A stretch of 39,710 nt of DNA. Origin: an uncultured Acidobacteriota bacterium. Its GTDB lineage: Bacteria; Acidobacteriota; Thermoanaerobaculia; UBA5066. Positions 3,173 to 31,382 of the stretch are shown one piece after another. How positions within the stretch are numbered: position 1 is the first letter of the stretch; each line of letters opens with the position of its first letter. The stretch lies in assembly GCA_903845115.1 (NCBI GenBank), contig CAIMWE010000075.1, positions 1 through 39,710 on the forward strand, in the 5' to 3' direction. Under the pieces are notes generated by a model. It made no database searches. It saw only the letters and a program-made list of their open reading frames with translations, and was not told where the DNA came from. The position numbers and the translations under genes were made by a program.

Positions 3173-3981
3173 TGTCCCGCATCGCTGGCGCGATCGTCCA
3201 CTTCGGCGCCCTCGACACCCTCTCCGCATCCGGGACGCCGCTCCACCGCCTCGACCCCCGGGCGAAGGTGGTGACGACGCTCGCCTTCGCCGCCGCGGTG
3301 GCCTCCTTCGGCAAGTACGCCGTCCTCCCCCTGCTGCCGTTCGCCCTCTTCCCGGTGGCCCTCGCGTCCGCCGGAGGCGTCCCGTTCGGGCTGCTGGGGC
3401 GGCGCCTCCTCCTCGCCCTGCCGTTCGTCGTCCTCGTCGGCGCCCTCAACCCGGTCCTCGACCGGATGCCGGTCTCCCTCGGCCCGTTCGCCGTCGCCGG
3501 CGGTTGGATGTCGTTCACGTCGATCCTGCTCCGTTTCGTCCTCACCGTCTCCGCGGCCCTCGTCCTGGTCGCTGTGACCGGCTTTCACGAGGTCTGCGCC
3601 GCGCTCGGCCGGCTCGGCGTGCCCCGGCCCCTCGTCACGCAGCTCCTCGTCCTCCACCGCTACCTCTTCGTCCTCCTCGAGGAGGCGGGCCGGATGGAGC
3701 GGGCCCGGAGCCTCCGCACGTTCGGGGGCCGCGGCCGGGGCCTGCCCGCGTCCGGCGCCTTCCTCGGCACGCTCCTGCTCCGGACCTGGGGCCGCGCGGA
3801 GCGGATCCACTTCTCCATGCTCGCCCGCGGGTTCGACGGCGTCCTCCGGTTCGAGCGCCCTCTCCGCTTCGGCGCCGCGGCCGTCCTCTTCACCTCCGGC
3901 TGGATCGCGCTCTTCCTGGCGTTCCGGCTCGTCGACGTCCCCCGCCTCCTGGGGTCGTTCCTCGCGGCGGCGGCCCCGTGA
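3172..3981 (+). CDS. cbiQ: CbiQ/NikQ-type ECF transporter transmembrane (T) component
   Basis: This 269-residue integral membrane protein is the scaffold that transmits ATPase movement to the metal-binding subunit. I place the start at the ATG overlapping the cbiM stop; further upstream the frame only shadows cbiM. The sequence begins with the family-typical 'LDTLSASGTPLHRLDPRAKVV' block (in pieces), followed by four or more hydrophobic helices. Two coupling-helix motifs are visible: 'RMERARSLRTFGGRG' at ~180-195 and 'SMLARGFDG' at ~220-228, corresponding to the Ala-Arg-Gly motifs that dock on the ATPase. The last codons overlap the next gene as GTGA. It is the middle gene of a compact three-gene import operon. 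Confidence 0.92.
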   Translation: MSRIAGAIVHFGALDTLSASGTPLHRLDPRAKVVTTLAFAAAVASFGKYAVLPLLPFALFPVALASAGGVPFGLLGRRLLLALPFVVLVGALNPVLDRMPVSLGPFAVAGGWMSFTSILLRFVLTVSAALVLVAVTGFHEVCAALGRLGVPRPLVTQLLVLHRYLFVLLEEAGRMERARSLRTFGGRGRGLPASGAFLGTLLLRTWGRAERIHFSMLARGFDGVLRFERPLRFGAAAVLFTSGWIALFLAFRLVDVPRLLGSFLAAAAP

Positions 3982-4724
3982 GCCACCACCTCGTCATCGC
4001 GGACCGGCTCCATTTCCGGTACCCGGACGGGACGCCGGCGCTGACGGGCGCGTCGTTCCGCATCGCCCACGGCGAGTCGGTGGGGATCGTCGGGGCGAAC
4101 GGCGCCGGGAAGTCGACGCTCCTGATGCACCTCAACGGCACGCTCCTCCCCGACTCGGGCGAGGTGCGGATCGGCGAGGAGCCCCTCACGCCCGACCGGA
4201 TCCCGGACGTGAGGCGCCGCGTCGGGATGATCTTCCAGGACCCGGACGACCAGCTCTTCATGCCGACCGTCCGCGACGACGTCGCCTTCGGCCCCCTGAA
4301 CATGGGCCTCCCCCCGGGCGAGGTCGAGGCGAGAGTGACGGCGGCGCTCCGGCGAACCGGGATCGAGGAGCTCGCCGCCCGGCCCCCCCACCGCCTGTCG
4401 GGGGGCGAGAAGCGGCGCGCCGCGATCGCCTCCGTCCTCGCGATGAGCCCGGACGTCCTCGTCCTGGACGAGCCGAGCGCCGGCCTCGACCCGCACGGCC
4501 GGCGCGCCCTGATCGGCCTCCTCCGGGAGTTCACGCACACGAAGATCGTGGCCACCCACGACCTCGACCTGGTCCTCGACCTCTGCGAGCGGACGATCGT
4601 CCTCGACCGCGGGACCGTCCGCGCCGACGGGAAGACGCGGGAGATCTTCGCCGACGAGCCCCTCCTCGCCTCCTGCCGGCTGGAGAAGCCCCTCTCCATG
4701 CAGGGCCATTGGGGACGGTCCTGA
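3978..4724 (+). CDS. cbiO: CbiO/NikO-type ECF transporter ATP-binding protein
   Basis: This 248-residue ABC ATPase powers the CbiMN-Q transporter. The GTG start overlaps the cbiQ stop by 4 nt (GTGA). Motifs in order are Walker A GANGAGKST at 39-47, the Q-loop in 'MIFQDPDDQLF' (Q87) typical of ECF ATPases, signature LSGGE at 140-144, Walker B VLVLDEP at 160-166 and an H-loop histidine in ATHDLD. Length matches the family. The last codons (GHWGRS, stop) lie inside the left arm of a perfect 61-bp palindrome shared with the convergent kynB gene, so the native C-terminus was probably altered when that sequence arrived. Only one ATPase gene is present, so it would act as a homodimer. Confidence 0.93.
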   Translation: MSHHLVIADRLHFRYPDGTPALTGASFRIAHGESVGIVGANGAGKSTLLMHLNGTLLPDSGEVRIGEEPLTPDRIPDVRRRVGMIFQDPDDQLFMPTVRDDVAFGPLNMGLPPGEVEARVTAALRRTGIEELAARPPHRLSGGEKRRAAIASVLAMSPDVLVLDEPSAGLDPHGRRALIGLLREFTHTKIVATHDLDLVLDLCERTIVLDRGTVRADGKTREIFADEPLLASCRLEKPLSMQGHWGRS

Positions 4725-4770
4725 AATCGTGTATTACTGCCAGTAATACACGATTTCAGGACCGTCCCCA
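4710..4770. repeat. Perfect 61-bp palindrome (30-bp arms, 1-bp centre) spanning two convergent gene ends
   Basis: Left arm 4710-4739 begins TGGGGACGGTCCTGAAATCG and ends in ATTACTG; the right arm 4741-4770 is its exact reverse complement around a single C at 4740. It encodes the last codons of cbiO on the + strand and of kynB on the - strand. As RNA it would form a very stable 30-bp hairpin from either side and could act as a bidirectional transcription stop, although neither side has a T-tract. Its AT content differs from neighbouring DNA, and its outer and inner blocks resemble the arms of the element at 11439-11859. It may be a mobile palindromic (REP/MITE-like) repeat. Confidence 0.9.
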
Positions 4771-10344: not shown

Positions 10345-11160
10345 TCAACGCAGCGACAGCTTCACCGGGAACTCGATCGGGAAGTCCACGTCGCCGCCGG
10401 ACAGGCGTAGCCGGGCGAGACCCGTCAGCTTCCCGTCTACTTTCCCACCCTTCATCAGCGTGCTCCCGGCAGCCGCCAGGGCGGCCCCGTTGTTCACGGC
10501 GATCGGGATCTGGATCCTGTTCGTCCGGCCGCCGTAAACCAGGAACTTCTCCCTCACCCCGGACGCGACGGCTCTTCCGTTCACCTCCACCTCGCACCTG
10601 GCTTCCACCACCTTCAGGTTGAATCGGAGAGGGGAGAGGACCTCCACGTCGGCGTTCACCGTCGTCGTCGTCATCCCGAGCCCGCCCAGGTGGATCTCGG
10701 GCGCCTTCGTGAAGCGGCGCAGCGTCACCTTCATCGACTCGGTCAGACTGACGGCCGCGCGGGGAACAGCTGCTCCCCAGTCCACCTTCCGCGCCTTCCC
10801 CCCGTCGACCCGCTCCCCCTGGACGCGGACCGTCAGGACGTCTGCGCGGGCCTTCCCGATCGCCTCGCCGGAGAGGGCCTCCCACGAGACCGACCCGGCC
10901 AGCTCGCATCCCCCGGCCCCCGGCGACAGGGTCCCCTCGAGCGCTGCCCCCGGCGGAGCGTCATAGAACGTCAGGCTTCCCCGGAATTTCCCCGTGCACT
11001 TCTCTGCCACCGACGGCGCGAGAAGCAGCGCCACGTCCATCTTCTCGGCCCCGATCGGCCCGATTCTGAGGCCCACGATCGGAGGCCCGGCTGGCGGCGC
11101 CTGCTTGGCTGGCGCCCCGAGGACCGGTGCCGCGGCCAGGAGACCCAGGATCGCGATCAC
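10345..11160 (-). CDS. Exported LEA14-like (LEA type 2 / WHy domain) protein
   Basis: From the GTG at 11160 the product has 271 residues: a hydrophobic leader 'IAILGLLAAAPVLGAPA', a variable middle region with Cys residues, and a C-terminal LEA-2/WHy-like domain starting near 'NADVEVLSPLRFNLKVVEARCEVEV' (in pieces) and ending 'DFPIEFPVKLSLR'. Such domains are beta-sandwiches linked to desiccation tolerance or to binding at the cell surface; the exact role here is unknown. The frame is open upstream to an ATG at 11226, but residues encoded there (MGQPVKVVDVAFG) belong to a capD-like pseudogene remnant fused in frame, so the longer start may be spurious or may be a rescued N-terminus. The GTG start lacks a charged n-region, so the choice is uncertain. 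It is probably cotranscribed with the glycosidase-like gene. Confidence 0.75.
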   Translation of the reverse strand: MIAILGLLAAAPVLGAPAKQAPPAGPPIVGLRIGPIGAEKMDVALLLAPSVAEKCTGKFRGSLTFYDAPPGAALEGTLSPGAGGCELAGSVSWEALSGEAIGKARADVLTVRVQGERVDGGKARKVDWGAAVPRAAVSLTESMKVTLRRFTKAPEIHLGGLGMTTTTVNADVEVLSPLRFNLKVVEARCEVEVNGRAVASGVREKFLVYGGRTNRIQIPIAVNNGAALAAAGSTLMKGGKVDGKLTGLARLRLSGGDVDFPIEFPVKLSLR

Positions 11161-11181
11161 CGGACGCCAGTCAGCCGGTGC

Positions 11182-11430
11182 ACGGATCCCGAAGGCGACG
11201 TCGACCACTTTCACGGGCTGCCCCATGTTCAGGATGAAGATCTCGCCCCCCTCTCCCAGCGCCCCGGCCTGCAGAACGAGCTACGCCGCCTCGGGGATCG
11301 TCATGAAGTGGCGCCGCACCTCCTGGTGGTTCACGGTCGCCGGGCCACCCCTTGCGACCTGCTCCCGAAACTTCAGAACCACCTAGCCAGTCGACCCTAG
11401 CACGTTTCCGAACCGGACGGCGACAACTCG
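11182..11430 (-). pseudogene. Fragment of a CapD/FlaA1-type nucleotide-sugar 4,6-dehydratase, two in-frame stops
   Basis: Read on the minus strand, this stretch gives RVVAVRFGNVLGSTG, a TAG stop (11383-11385), VVLKFREQVARGGPATV, NHQEVRRHFMTIPEAA, a second TAG (11281-11283), then LVLQAGALGEGGEIFIL and NMGQPVKVVDVAFGIR. This is the C-terminal third of polysaccharide-biosynthesis dehydratases, whose usual text is 'VRFGNVLGSSGSVVPLFREQI..GGPVTVTHPE..RYFMTIPEA'. Both TAGs can arise by one or two base changes from expected codons. The 5' part of the gene is missing: homology stops 8 bp from the inverted-repeat element at 11439. The 3' end runs in frame into the LEA14-like gene. It is clearly dead as an enzyme. 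Confidence 0.85.
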
Positions 11431-11438
11431 ACAACTCG

Positions 11439-11859
11439 GGGTCAGGGCTGTGTTTTGTGTTTCAATCAGTCGATCTATCAACAAGTCCTGACAAAGATCA
11501 CGGCTGCGCAGCCTCGACCCCGGCCCCCGCAAGAGGCTTCCCCGCTTCCGACCCTCCACAGCACCGGGTTCTACGTCGACGTGGCCGATCGAGAAGCCCT
11601 CTGCCGCATCCTGGACTGGTTCTGAGCCTGGTGAATGTTCGTAGTCGACACGAACGTCCCCGTCTTCGCTGCCGACGAGCGTTCGCTGGCGCACCCGGTC
11701 TGCGTCCAGCGGCTCGAAGAGTGGCGCGGCGGATCTGGAGCCTGGTTGCGGGAACGCTTCATCGAGATCCCCTTGGCGGAATTGATCGGGAGGACCAGGA
11801 TGATTCCGCCAAGTCACAAGTTCCTACTCCGAAAAATACACAAAACACAGCCCTGACCC
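11439..11859. mobile_element. 421-bp element bounded by 22-bp perfect inverted repeats, no transposase
   Basis: The left arm 11439-11460 reads GGGTCAGGGCTG then TGTTTTGTGT; the right arm 11838-11859 is its exact reverse complement. Between them lie 377 bp containing debris of a toxin-antitoxin pair and no transposase. The arms are AT-richer than the surroundings. The outer block (GGGGtCaGGgCTG) and, in the right arm, the inner block GTGTATT resemble the arms of the palindrome at 4710-4770. I read this as a non-autonomous (MITE/REP-like) insertion or two such palindromic halves that trapped foreign DNA. It abuts the capD remnant. Confidence 0.65.
11559..11856 (+). pseudogene. Toxin-antitoxin debris: antitoxin tail and truncated VapC-like PIN toxin
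   Basis: A frame ending at 11625 reads STGFYVDVADREALCRILDWF, stop, which resembles the C-terminus of VapB-type antitoxins ('..VDLADREALYR..'). Nine nt later an ATG at 11635 opens MFVVDTNVPVFAADERSLAH, the N-terminus of a PIN-domain RNase toxin with its first catalytic aspartate (Asp5). Homology ends near residue 40 (GSGAWL); the rest of the 73-codon frame is read through unrelated sequence and the right inverted-repeat arm (IHKTQP, stop). The PIN domain lacks its remaining acidic residues and cannot be active. The order antitoxin then toxin matches intact vapBC operons. Confidence 0.6.
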
Positions 11860-11898
11860 TCCCCATCTCCCCATTGTGCGGCAGCCTGCGGCGACGCC

Positions 11899-24581: not shown

Positions 24582-27081
<2,500 letters not shown>

Positions 27082-27087
27082 TCCGGC

Positions 27088-29052
27088 TCAGGACCGGAAC
27101 GCCGGGAAAGTGCCGGAACGCAGCACGGGTTCTCCGCGGTCGGGCCCCGGCAGGGAGAACGAGAAGACCGCCCCCGCTCCCACGGTCCCTTCCCCCCAGA
27201 CCCGCCCGCCGTGCCGGGCGACGATCCTCTGCACCAGGGCGAGGCCGACTCCCGTCCCCTCGAACTCCGCCGCCCCGTGCAGGCGCTTGAAGACCCCGAA
27301 GAGCTTCGCCGAGTTGGCCATGTCGAAGCCGACACCGTTGTCCCTGATGGCGTAGACGCTCTGGCCTCCGTCGGTCGAGCCCGTCACCTCGATCCGGGGC
27401 GGGTCCGACCGGGCCGAGAACTTGACCGCGTTCGACACCAGGTTCGTCCACACCTGCCTCAGAAGCGACGGGTCACCCCAGGCCGCGGGAAGGTCCCTGA
27501 CCGCGAAGACGACTCGTTCCCTTTCGGAGACGTCCTGGACCACCTCCTCGAAGACGTGCCGGACCAGCTCCCCCATCGGGACCGCGCTCTTCCGCACCTC
27601 CGCCCGGCTCGTCCGCGAGAACGCGAGGAGGTCGTCGACCAGTCTCTTCATCCGGACCGCGTTCTGCCGGACCACGCCGAGCAACCGCTGGCTCTCCGGG
27701 TCCAGGGCTTGCCCCGCCCGTTCGGAGACCCTCCTCGAGAACCCGTCGATCGCCCGGAGCGGCGCCCGGAGGTCGTGCGAGACCGAGGACGAGAACAACT
27801 CGAGCTCTCGGTTCACGGCCTCGAGCTGGGCCGTCCGTTCGGCGACCTTCTCCTCCAGGGATTCGTTCAGGCGGCGGATCTCCTCGTCGGCCCGCCGCCG
27901 TTCGGCGATGTCGCGAGTGACCCCTCGCAGCTCCACGTGGCCGTTCTCCGGGTTCCGGTAGTACCCGGAGACGATCTCGGTCCAGACGAAAGACCCGTCC
28001 CGGTGCGGTTGCGACAGCTCGTCCGTGTAGAAGACCCCGGGTTTCTCGCCTCCCGCGACGAACTCGGCGGCCCGCTTCCGGGTCGACGCCCTGAGGCGCT
28101 CGCCGACCTCCGGCTGGAAGGGCTGGCCCAGCGGCATCCTCAGGACCTCCTCGACCGGATATCCCAGGAGCCGCTCGATGGCCGGACTGACGTACCGGTA
28201 GGACATCGTCTCGGTGTCGAGGACCCAGGCGACGTCCTTCACGTTCTCGGTCAGGATCCGGTAACGCTCGGCCGCCTTCCGCGCGACCTCCTCGGCCTTC
28301 CGGCGCTCGGTGACGTCGTGGACGAGCGAGAGCGTCCGTTCCTCTGCGCCGATCCGGAGGATCGAGATCTTGATCTCCACCGGGAAGAGAGTGCCGTCCT
28401 TTCGCCGGTGGACCGTCTGGAACGTGGTGATCCCCACCTTCCGGCGGGCGGCCGAGTCGGCCCGGAACCGCTCAGGCGTCAGGTTCGGGGCGACGTCGAA
28501 GATCGTCATCCCGAGGAGCTCCTCCTGCGTGTAGCCCGTCTGCCGGCACGTCTCGAGATTCACGGCGACGTAACGGCCCTCGCCGTCGAGGAGCTCGAAC
28601 CCTTCTCCGGCCTGCTCGACCAGCGTCCGGAACCGGGCCTCGCTCTCCCTCACGACCTTCTCCGCCCGGACGCGCTCGGAGACGTCGCGTGCGGTCGTGT
28701 GGATGCAGGTGACGCCACCCACGCTCAGGGGGCGGTTCGAGAACTCCGTCTCGACCTTGGTGCCGTCCTTCCTCCGGATCGCCGCCTTGCTCAGCATCGC
28801 CTCTCCCGCGAGGATCCGCTCGTGAAAGCTGTTGTAGGCGTGGAGATCGGCGGCGTCGTGGAGGTCCGGGATCGACATCGACAGGAGCTCGTCGCGGGAA
28901 TAGCCGGTGAGGGCAGAGGCGGCCCGGTTGGCGGCCAGAAACCGCCCTTCGCCGTCCGACAGGAAGATCGCATCCCGGGAACCTTCGAAGATGGCTTCCA
29001 GCCAGGTCTCTGCGGACCCGCCGAACTCGCCGAGGACTCCCGCGACCGGCAT
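27088..29052 (-). CDS. Sensor histidine kinase with three PAS domains, no membrane segment
   Basis: This 654-residue kinase has PAS domains at ~15-130, ~140-255 and ~265-385, each ending in the PAC-like 'RDVSER', 'HDVTERRK' and 'RDIAERRR'. A coiled-coil follows, then HisKA with the phospho-acceptor in SHDLRAPLRAIDGFSRRV (~425) and an HATPase domain with 'NLVSNAVKFS', 'IRDNGVGFDM' and 'FEGTGVGLALV'. No membrane helix or signal peptide is visible, so it senses a cytoplasmic or diffusible signal (redox, gas, ligand). It lies 41 nt downstream of a paralogous kinase on the same strand and shares its kinase core. No response regulator gene is in the window. Confidence 0.93.
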   Translation of the reverse strand: MPVAGVLGEFGGSAETWLEAIFEGSRDAIFLSDGEGRFLAANRAASALTGYSRDELLSMSIPDLHDAADLHAYNSFHERILAGEAMLSKAAIRRKDGTKVETEFSNRPLSVGGVTCIHTTARDVSERVRAEKVVRESEARFRTLVEQAGEGFELLDGEGRYVAVNLETCRQTGYTQEELLGMTIFDVAPNLTPERFRADSAARRKVGITTFQTVHRRKDGTLFPVEIKISILRIGAEERTLSLVHDVTERRKAEEVARKAAERYRILTENVKDVAWVLDTETMSYRYVSPAIERLLGYPVEEVLRMPLGQPFQPEVGERLRASTRKRAAEFVAGGEKPGVFYTDELSQPHRDGSFVWTEIVSGYYRNPENGHVELRGVTRDIAERRRADEEIRRLNESLEEKVAERTAQLEAVNRELELFSSSVSHDLRAPLRAIDGFSRRVSERAGQALDPESQRLLGVVRQNAVRMKRLVDDLLAFSRTSRAEVRKSAVPMGELVRHVFEEVVQDVSERERVVFAVRDLPAAWGDPSLLRQVWTNLVSNAVKFSARSDPPRIEVTGSTDGGQSVYAIRDNGVGFDMANSAKLFGVFKRLHGAAEFEGTGVGLALVQRIVARHGGRVWGEGTVGAGAVFSFSLPGPDRGEPVLRSGTFPAFRS

Positions 29053-29093: not shown

Positions 29094-31382
29094 TCATGCG
29101 GTGGGCGCTCGAGGCCGGAGGGCGCGTTCCTCGCCGGAGAGCCTCGCCGGAGGCCGCTCCGGCCGGAGCGGGAGGGAGAACGAGAAGCAGGCGCCTTCCC
29201 CGACGGCTCCCTCCGCCCGGACCTCGCCGCCGTGCCGGGAGACGATCCGGCGCACGAGCGCGAGGCCCACGCCGGTTCCCTCGAACTCGGTCATCCCGTG
29301 GAGGCGCTGGAAGACGCCGAACAGCTTCGCCGCGTAGGCCGGGTCGAAGCCCGCCCCGTTGTCGCGGACGCGGTAGACCGTCATGTCCCCTTCGACCGCC
29401 CCGCTGACCTCGATGCGGGGCGAGAGCGAGTGGGCCGAGAACTTCACGGCGTTCGAGAGGAGGTTCACCCAGACCTGCCGCAGAAGCCGCCCGTCCCCCC
29501 ACGCGTCCGGCAGCTCGCCCACCGCAAAGGCGATCCGTTCCCGGTGGTCGGCTTCGGAGACGATCTCCAGGAACACCGACCCGGCGAGGGCCTCCGAGCT
29601 CACGACCGTCCGGCGGATCTCGCCCCGTCCGGCCCGGGAGAATGCGAGGAGGCCGTCGATCAGCTCGGACATCCGCCGCGTGTTCGACCGGATCACCCCG
29701 AGGAGGCGCATCCCCTCCTCGTCGAGGAGCGGGCCGTACCGGTCGACGACCCGCCGCGAGAAGCCGTCGATCGCGCGGAGCGGCGCCCGGAGGTCGTGCG
29801 ACACGGAGTAGGAGAACCCCTCCAGCTCCAGGTTGGCCGACTCGAACTCGGCCGTCCGCTCCTTCACGCGGCGCTCCAGGTCGGCGCTGGAAGCCTCGAG
29901 ATTCTCCCTGGCCAGCTGGAGCTCGGTGACGTCCTGAAGGTGGGCGATGAAGCAAAGCGGCTCGCCGCGGGAGTCCCGGACCAGCGAGCTGGAGACCTGC
30001 CCCCAGACGACCCCGCCGTCTCGCCGGAGGTACCGCTTGACGAACGCGGCGTGCCCGCTCTCCCCCGCGATCGCCCGCTCCATGAACCCCGGCGCGATCT
30101 CGAGGTCGTCGGAGTGGGTGACGTCGGCCACGCTCATCCGCTCGAGCTCGTCCCGGGTGTAGCCGAGCAGGCGGCACGTGGCGTCGTTCACCCGCAGGAA
30201 CCTCCCGTCAGTGCTCAGGACGCAGACGCTCAGGTTCACGTCCTCGAAGGCCGCGCGGAACCGGGCCTCGCTCTCCCGCAGCGCTTCCTCCTGACGCTTG
30301 CGGCCCGAGATGTCGAGGACGCTGGAGAGGCGGCACGGGCGCCCCCCGATCGAGACCTCGACCACCGAGAGGAGGCAGGTCAGGAGATTGCCCTCCCTGG
30401 TCCGGAAGGCGACTTCCCGGCCGTAGACCTTCCCTTTCTCCTTCATCTCGGCCAGGACGCCGCCCAGGTCCTCGGGACGATCGAACATGCCCAGGTCGCG
30501 CACCCTGTGACCGACCAACTCTTCCCGCCGGTAGACCATGTCCCGGAGGAAGACGTCGTTGACGTCGATCACGGTCCCCTCGGGCATCGAGGTGAGGAGG
30601 TTCGCGACCGGGCTGGACCGAAAGACCGCGGCGAAGGTCCGCTCCGACTCGCCGAGGGCCCTCTCGGCTGCCTCCCGCTCCCTCACGTCCCGGAGGAGGG
30701 CCAGGAAGAGCACCTCTCCGCCCACCTCGAGGCGCCCGAGCCGGATCTCGACGGGAAGCCTCGTCCCGTCTTTCCTGCGGAGGTGATCGAGGCGGGTGTG
30801 CGGGAGCCCGGCGCGGATCTTCTTCCAGGCCGACTGGGCTCCTTCCAGCCAGAACGTCTCGTGGATGTCCTCCAGCCGGAGGGCCACGAGCTCCTCGCGG
30901 GAATACCCAAGGGTGTCGCACGCGCGACGGTTCGCGTCCCGGATCCTCCCCTGCCCGTCGTGGACCAGGAAGCCCTCCTCGGCCTGGTCCACCTGGGCCC
31001 GGAAACGGTCGTCCCGCCGCCTCAGCATCGCGACCGAGAGGGCAGCCAGCTCCGCCGGGTCGACCGGTTCCTCCAGGAGGGCGTCCGCGCCGGCCTCCAG
31101 GACCTTCGCCCGCGTGGCGGCCGGACATCCTCGCGGCACGACGAGGACGAGGGGGACCTCCCGGGTGGCGAGATCGGCTTTCAGGACGGAGCAGAGCTCC
31201 ACCCCCTCGTCGCCCCGGGCGCGAGGGTTCAGGACGATCATGTGCGGCGCCAGAGCAACGATCTGCCCGGCCGTCCGGGGGCCGAGCGACATCTCGATCA
31301 CCTCCGCACTGGGAAAGCGGTCCTTCAGGAACCCCGCCTCGGGCGCGGGTCCTGGTCCATCACAAACCGCCAGGAAGATCAT
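29094..31382 (-). CDS. Histidine kinase with degenerate receiver, three PAS domains and paralogous kinase core
   Basis: The product has 762 residues. Residues ~1-120 look like a response-regulator receiver, but Asn52 stands where the phospho-acceptor Asp is expected ('HMIVLNPRARGDEGVEL') and Glu105 replaces the conserved Lys before Pro ('ALLEEPVDPAEL'), so it is a pseudo-receiver. PAS domains follow at ~130-240, ~250-365 and ~370-490. HisKA carries SVSHDLRAPLRAIDGFSRRV, and the ATPase has 'NLLSNAVKFSAHS', 'RDNGAGFDP' and 'FEGTGVGLALV'. The core is nearly the same as in the downstream kinase, pointing to tandem duplication followed by change of sensor modules. GAGG precedes the ATG. It is soluble; the signal is unknown. 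Confidence 0.92.
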   Translation of the reverse strand: MIFLAVCDGPGPAPEAGFLKDRFPSAEVIEMSLGPRTAGQIVALAPHMIVLNPRARGDEGVELCSVLKADLATREVPLVLVVPRGCPAATRAKVLEAGADALLEEPVDPAELAALSVAMLRRRDDRFRAQVDQAEEGFLVHDGQGRIRDANRRACDTLGYSREELVALRLEDIHETFWLEGAQSAWKKIRAGLPHTRLDHLRRKDGTRLPVEIRLGRLEVGGEVLFLALLRDVREREAAERALGESERTFAAVFRSSPVANLLTSMPEGTVIDVNDVFLRDMVYRREELVGHRVRDLGMFDRPEDLGGVLAEMKEKGKVYGREVAFRTREGNLLTCLLSVVEVSIGGRPCRLSSVLDISGRKRQEEALRESEARFRAAFEDVNLSVCVLSTDGRFLRVNDATCRLLGYTRDELERMSVADVTHSDDLEIAPGFMERAIAGESGHAAFVKRYLRRDGGVVWGQVSSSLVRDSRGEPLCFIAHLQDVTELQLARENLEASSADLERRVKERTAEFESANLELEGFSYSVSHDLRAPLRAIDGFSRRVVDRYGPLLDEEGMRLLGVIRSNTRRMSELIDGLLAFSRAGRGEIRRTVVSSEALAGSVFLEIVSEADHRERIAFAVGELPDAWGDGRLLRQVWVNLLSNAVKFSAHSLSPRIEVSGAVEGDMTVYRVRDNGAGFDPAYAAKLFGVFQRLHGMTEFEGTGVGLALVRRIVSRHGGEVRAEGAVGEGACFSFSLPLRPERPPARLSGEERALRPRAPTA

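Follow-up and report, generated by a model that had tools for sequence, protein, structure and literature searches.

Y1 transposase genes flanked by TIRs, many of which read GGGGWSAS, have been described as TIRYTs or TIRtrons (Di Nocera 2013, PMC3733652), with TIR families that comprise single, dimeric and grouped repeats (PMC3733652), and most TIRYTs have been placed in subclass 2.1 (Quentin 2018, PMC6006769). Single-strand cleavage and joining are established for IS608 and ISDra2, and TnpA_REP of E. coli has nuclease activity (PMC6006769); that TIRs are mobilised by transposases of this type has been proposed but not proven (PMC3733652, PMC6006769). We analyzed a 39,710-nt window, contig C75 of the genome of an uncultured Acidobacteriota bacterium (assembly G000; 5.85 Mb, 305 contigs), which contains a 421-bp element with ends of 22 bp each (arm A) and a 61-bp palindrome (arm B). 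Both probably belong to the TIRYT/TIRtron kind, since arm A fits GGGGWSAS and a Y1 transposase gene is flanked by the same inverted repeats. Specifically, GGGGTCAG, which is how both the transposase's arm A and the left arm of the window element read, agrees with GGGGWSAS at 8/8 positions (W=T, S=C, A, S=G); in the right window arm, the first G is replaced by A, and arm B (GGGGACGG) agrees at 7/8. As in the described systems, Y1/HUH genes lie between long inverted repeats whose first bases are GGGG[AT][CG].., a separate repeat family goes with each transposase, and the repeats occur as singles, dimers and groups. Unlike here, TIR pairs enclosing toxin-antitoxin genes are not described for TIRYTs/TIRtrons (PMC3733652, PMC6006769).

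Three other kinds of element share some of these traits. REP/REPIN-RAYT systems (PMC3116915, PMC2817692) also consist of dispersed palindromic repeats tied to a Y1 gene, with inverted pairs as the mobile unit, but our arms lack the GTAG/GTGG foot and do not fold singly; in a folding calculation, single arms gave no stable ssDNA fold and arm pairs gave strong hairpins. Canonical REPs or REPINs were rejected on the absence of the GT[AG]G foot and of a self-folding hairpin. The transposases considered here have the same catalytic fold family (Y1_Tnp) as IS200/IS605, so that single-strand chemistry would be expected, yet they show a Y...NP rather than a Y...Q context, and where IS200/IS605 elements have subterminal hairpins they have terminal inverted repeats. 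Tn3-derived TIMEs and TIME-COMP (PMC4133298) are likewise transposase-free inverted-repeat elements that may enclose unrelated genes, but they are moved by a Tn3-family transposase with 5–6-bp target duplications (PMC4133298), and their ends are unrelated to ours. With the TIRYT/TIRtron assignment, the two repeats of the window would fall into a widespread and little-studied class, that of single-strand transposases whose ends are inverted repeats, and naming a cognate transposase for each repeat makes binding and cleavage directly testable.

The 421-bp element (11439–11859) is bounded by GGGTCAGGGCTGTGTTTTGTGT on the (+) strand and its exact reverse complement on the (−) strand, identical at 22/22 bases, with 377 bp enclosed (Table 1). 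Chance is excluded for this pair, since no arm match is expected in window shuffles even when 3 mismatches are allowed, and perfect inverted repeats whose arms lie no more than 500 bp apart reach 30 bp in the window vs 17 bp in 20 shuffles. The element reported in the first-pass annotation is therefore real, and it was correctly called transposase-free: no transposase is encoded inside, and comparison with three full-length transposase elements showed no similarity. At 11438, the outermost G has no counterpart on the right, since position 11860 reads A on the minus strand. The flanks (ACTCG / TCCCC) contain no target-site duplication, which argues against a classical DDE transposon or MITE, and an Rfam scan of the window gave no match.

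Table 1. Coordinates and strands of the features discussed in the window
Feature	Position	Strand	Remarks
61-bp palindrome, two touching family-B arms	4710..4770		Cognate transposase at C168:815-1150
CapD/WbpM-type sugar epimerase gene fragment, decayed	11160..11428	−	Two in-frame stops
Left arm (arm A)	11439..11460	+	Outer flank CTCG, like right end of transposase-A element
VapB-type antitoxin C-terminal remnant (...LPTLHSTGFYVDVADREALCRILDWF*)	11464..11625	+	tblastn; start-codon side absent
VapC (PIN) toxin N-terminal remnant, residues 1-37 only	11635..11745	+	Begins MFVVDTNVPVFAADE; homologue comparison
92 bp, 52% G+C, without known relative	11746..11837	+	
Right arm (arm A)	11838..11859	−	Flank AGATGGGGA, inner GTGTATTTTTCG; like left-end type

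A scan of the window's own assembly yielded 24 copies of arm A (≤3 mismatches) and 10 copies of arm B, against none of either in the reversed control. Arm A, whose genomic copies vary at 1–3 positions, occurs in a ~1-kb transposase unit (C222:21014-22018), in palindromes with touching or nearly touching arms (C222:17732-17789 and 26616-26682), in four 128-bp units of 89–100% identity (three at C132 and one at C222:71854-71983), in the window element and as eight single arms; at C253:82058 there is one more copy, degenerate and with 5 mismatches. The 128-bp unit was also considered as a deleted transposase, and no similarity was found. Searches of 60 relatives and of the genome collection returned no arm A.

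A family search identified four Y1_Tnp genes in G000, all with GGGG-starting inverted repeats on both sides. Arm A flanks transposase A (C222:21086-21403) at −73 and +911, the two arms being identical at 23/23 positions; for transposase B (C168), the flanking copies of arm B lie at −60 and +919; and arm C (GGGGGTCAGGTCTCAACACTGTGAT) flanks Y1_Tnp genes at C141 and C41. The matching transposase, whose existence the first-pass annotation left to be checked, is thus present for each window repeat, in units (C222:21014-22018 for arm A and C168:755-1758 for arm B) that each encode a ~320-aa Y1/HUH transposase. Transposases A and B share 45% identity across 188 aa. Transposase A scores 84.9 bits against a curated cut-off of 80 for the NCBIfam model 'REP-associated tyrosine transposase', and the motifs read from its sequence (NHYH, FQ and YTALNP) are like those of subclass 2.1 (Quentin 2018, PMC6006769). 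Subclass 2.1 is also marked by an HTH/DnaA-like tail at the C terminus; a Bac_DnaA_C (HTH) tail was found below the cut-off in transposase B (E 3e-5) and not at all by Pfam in transposase A.

At least seven long Y1 genes in relatives (L112, L113, L114, L116, L119, L121 and L128) also have matched ends, which, counted from where the Y1 match begins, lie at about −65 to −125 on one side and +905 to +995 on the other; in the same search, clear ends were not found for others, including L117, L118, L120, L122 and L125–L127. Three relatives of one genus contain a related arm (ending TGAAATCGTGTATT) 36–45 times per genome, mostly in pairs ~34 bp apart, which is the same form as the window palindrome. 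In another relative (G003), there are ten Y1_Tnp matches, several sharing the same 326-aa open frame, which suggests a multi-copy Y1 element.

Each arm of the palindrome measures 30 bp, and the two are 100% complementary around one base. The first-pass annotation regarded palindrome and element as two members of one family of repeats. Since arms A and B each flank their own cognate Y1 transposase, they represent two separate families, albeit within one superfamily of ends. The layout said to be shared by the two arms is real (GGGGnCnGG..CTG..GTGTATT), but it requires a 1-nt gap and extends to just 18–20 matched positions. Likewise, the contrast drawn between touching arms and arms that enclose DNA is one of form rather than of family, as both families show both forms. 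Of the two outcomes that would have spoken against kinship, a lack of further genomic copies is not the case, and a division into unrelated arm families applies in part, the families being separate. We infer that the sister family moved by transposase B has its minimal dimer form in the 61-bp palindrome. A window ORF encoding an ABC ATPase domain (3504–4724) runs into the left arm of the palindrome, where it stops at TGA, and the reading frame of transposase A likewise terminates on TGA within its own right arm.

Since ends identical to those of the 421-bp element flank a transposase gene in the same genome, we read the element as a passenger of transposase A: it is probably a non-autonomous TIR element of this TIRYT/RAYT-type Y1 (HUH) transposase, encoded at C222. 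Transposase A would cut and rejoin single strands at the arm ends, probably at the replication fork and without target duplication, by analogy with the IS200/IS605 family. Any DNA between a left-type and a right-type end could then travel with the ends, and the present copy may have captured a vapBC module, or arisen around one, with decay of the module following later. Movement of the element would follow from such a scheme; it has never been seen moving as a unit, because there is no second copy of it. Its interior has no other copies in the genome either.

The ends themselves have a polarity: one end has TG and the opposite end CG as the outer flank before GGGTC, both in the transposase unit and in all four 128-bp units, a small sample in which the three C132 units are closely related to each other. 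One of the palindromes shows this polarity reversed and the other has TG/GG. In the window element, the left arm is of the CG type (CTCG), and the right arm follows AGATG with an unusual GGGGA inserted between this flank and the arm. The flanks thus appear to fit one unit in reverse orientation, within the limits of the small sample. These observations bear on a second, less probable explanation, in which two independent TIR insertions (or rearrangements between TIRs) bracketed decaying DNA in a gene graveyard, so that the 421 bp never moved as a unit. The opposite end types are what a single unit would be expected to have, the two arms are identical at 22/22 positions although genomic copies differ at 1–3, and arms often come as inverted pairs, all of which argue against independent insertions; on the other side, single arms do exist at eight loci, the whole element is present in just one copy, the left flank is also a gene relic (the capD fragment with stops), and the last 92 bp of the interior are unrelated to vapC.

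The enclosed 377 bp contain 61% G+C vs about 70% in the flanks and open 3 bp past the left arm in the middle of a VapB-type antitoxin, whose tblastn matches are antitoxins immediately upstream of vapC in L134, L133, L141, L153 and others. The antitoxin tail is followed by the start of VapC, the usual order for vapBC. The VapC remnant has homologues in other genomes, several of them Acidobacteria, with up to 58% identity; similarity stops at residue 37/38 in nearly all of them, and full-length homologues measure 144–147 aa. The last 92 bp were also considered as the remainder of vapC and gave no convincing match against nine homologues. To judge from its sequence, the vapBC pair is dead and truncated, since VapB lacks its start side and VapC is kept only to residue 37, and the element carries nothing functional. 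The earlier description of the interior as foreign DNA was thus borne out in part only, by its base composition and the broken vapBC pair. An internal-deletion derivative (MITE) of the transposase-A element would have the same ends, and family C includes a similarly shortened element (at C41), but the interior contains vapBC instead and is without similarity to transposase A, which contradicts a deleted transposase and makes this origin very improbable. At C41, around 59381–59862 (L038), the family-C element is shortened inside, with its right arm at +357 instead of +921, and is likely an internal-deletion derivative.

Beyond the left arm, the upstream side of the capD fragment ends at 11428, 10 bp from the arm; this CapD/WbpM epimerase is an intact conserved gene in relatives and decayed in the window. 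Among relatives, flank conservation covers only the capD relic (to 11428) and a repetitive PKD-like gene, and no intact orthologous junction was seen. No empty site was found; arm A is missing from the 60 relatives and the genome collection. It is plausible that pairs of such ends mobilise or trap sequence, as the first-pass annotation suggested, although the enclosed genes are dead and neither an empty site nor a target duplication was found.

A further, surprising pattern in G000 is that members of the TIR family repeatedly neighbour toxin-antitoxin modules or lie between them. At C132:24627-26622 (L039), three same-direction 128-bp arm-A units alternate with mazEF-type and vapBC pairs, and at C253:81213-82080 (L046), a MazE-like antitoxin and a PIN toxin are enclosed by two direct repeats of ~55 bp, each with arm A at its end, degenerate in the second. 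PIN genes are also found 344 bp from a C222 palindrome, 43 bp from an arm B at C168 and 426 bp from the C41 element. Overall, a PIN gene lies within 500 bp at 4/21 A and B loci vs 1.2% of the genome (binomial 1.2e-4, or ~6e-3 when just intergenic space is compared, at an assumed 3.5%), a distance chosen post hoc for an association noticed after the fact. The same search in three relatives, with 5–11 PIN genes per genome and hence little or no power, found no PIN genes near arms, and the papers searched gave no TIR or RAYT linked with vapBC. We regard the association, which is above chance, post hoc and unreplicated, as a lead, not a result; if it held in sister genomes, it would suggest a spread route for such modules.

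These loci raise the rather unlikely explanation of a TIR-bounded cassette system for toxin-antitoxin modules, with the 128-bp dimers as exchange points and the window element as a dead cassette. TIRYT ends would then serve in this lineage as bracketing sites, and a single-strand transposase would shuffle or capture the modules that alternate with 128-bp TIR units, again an improbable proposition. The mazEF and vapBC pairs between three same-direction units at C132, the antitoxin-PIN pair between direct repeats at C253 and the PIN genes near 4/21 loci are consistent with it; against it, the enrichment depends on the post hoc distance and is unreplicated in three PIN-poor relatives, toxin-antitoxin genes cluster in variable regions anyway, and ordinary recombination duplicating a unit would yield the same array. 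The C132 locus was also considered as an integron cassette array and rejected, as the 128-bp unit ends in GGGGTCAGG/CCTGACCCC and no paired attC core (RYYYAAC/GTTRRRY) was seen on reading the sequence. Elsewhere in the window, two stretches at 27148–27840 and 29169–29861, lying 2021 bp apart, are ~75% identical and apparently represent a tandem gene duplication.
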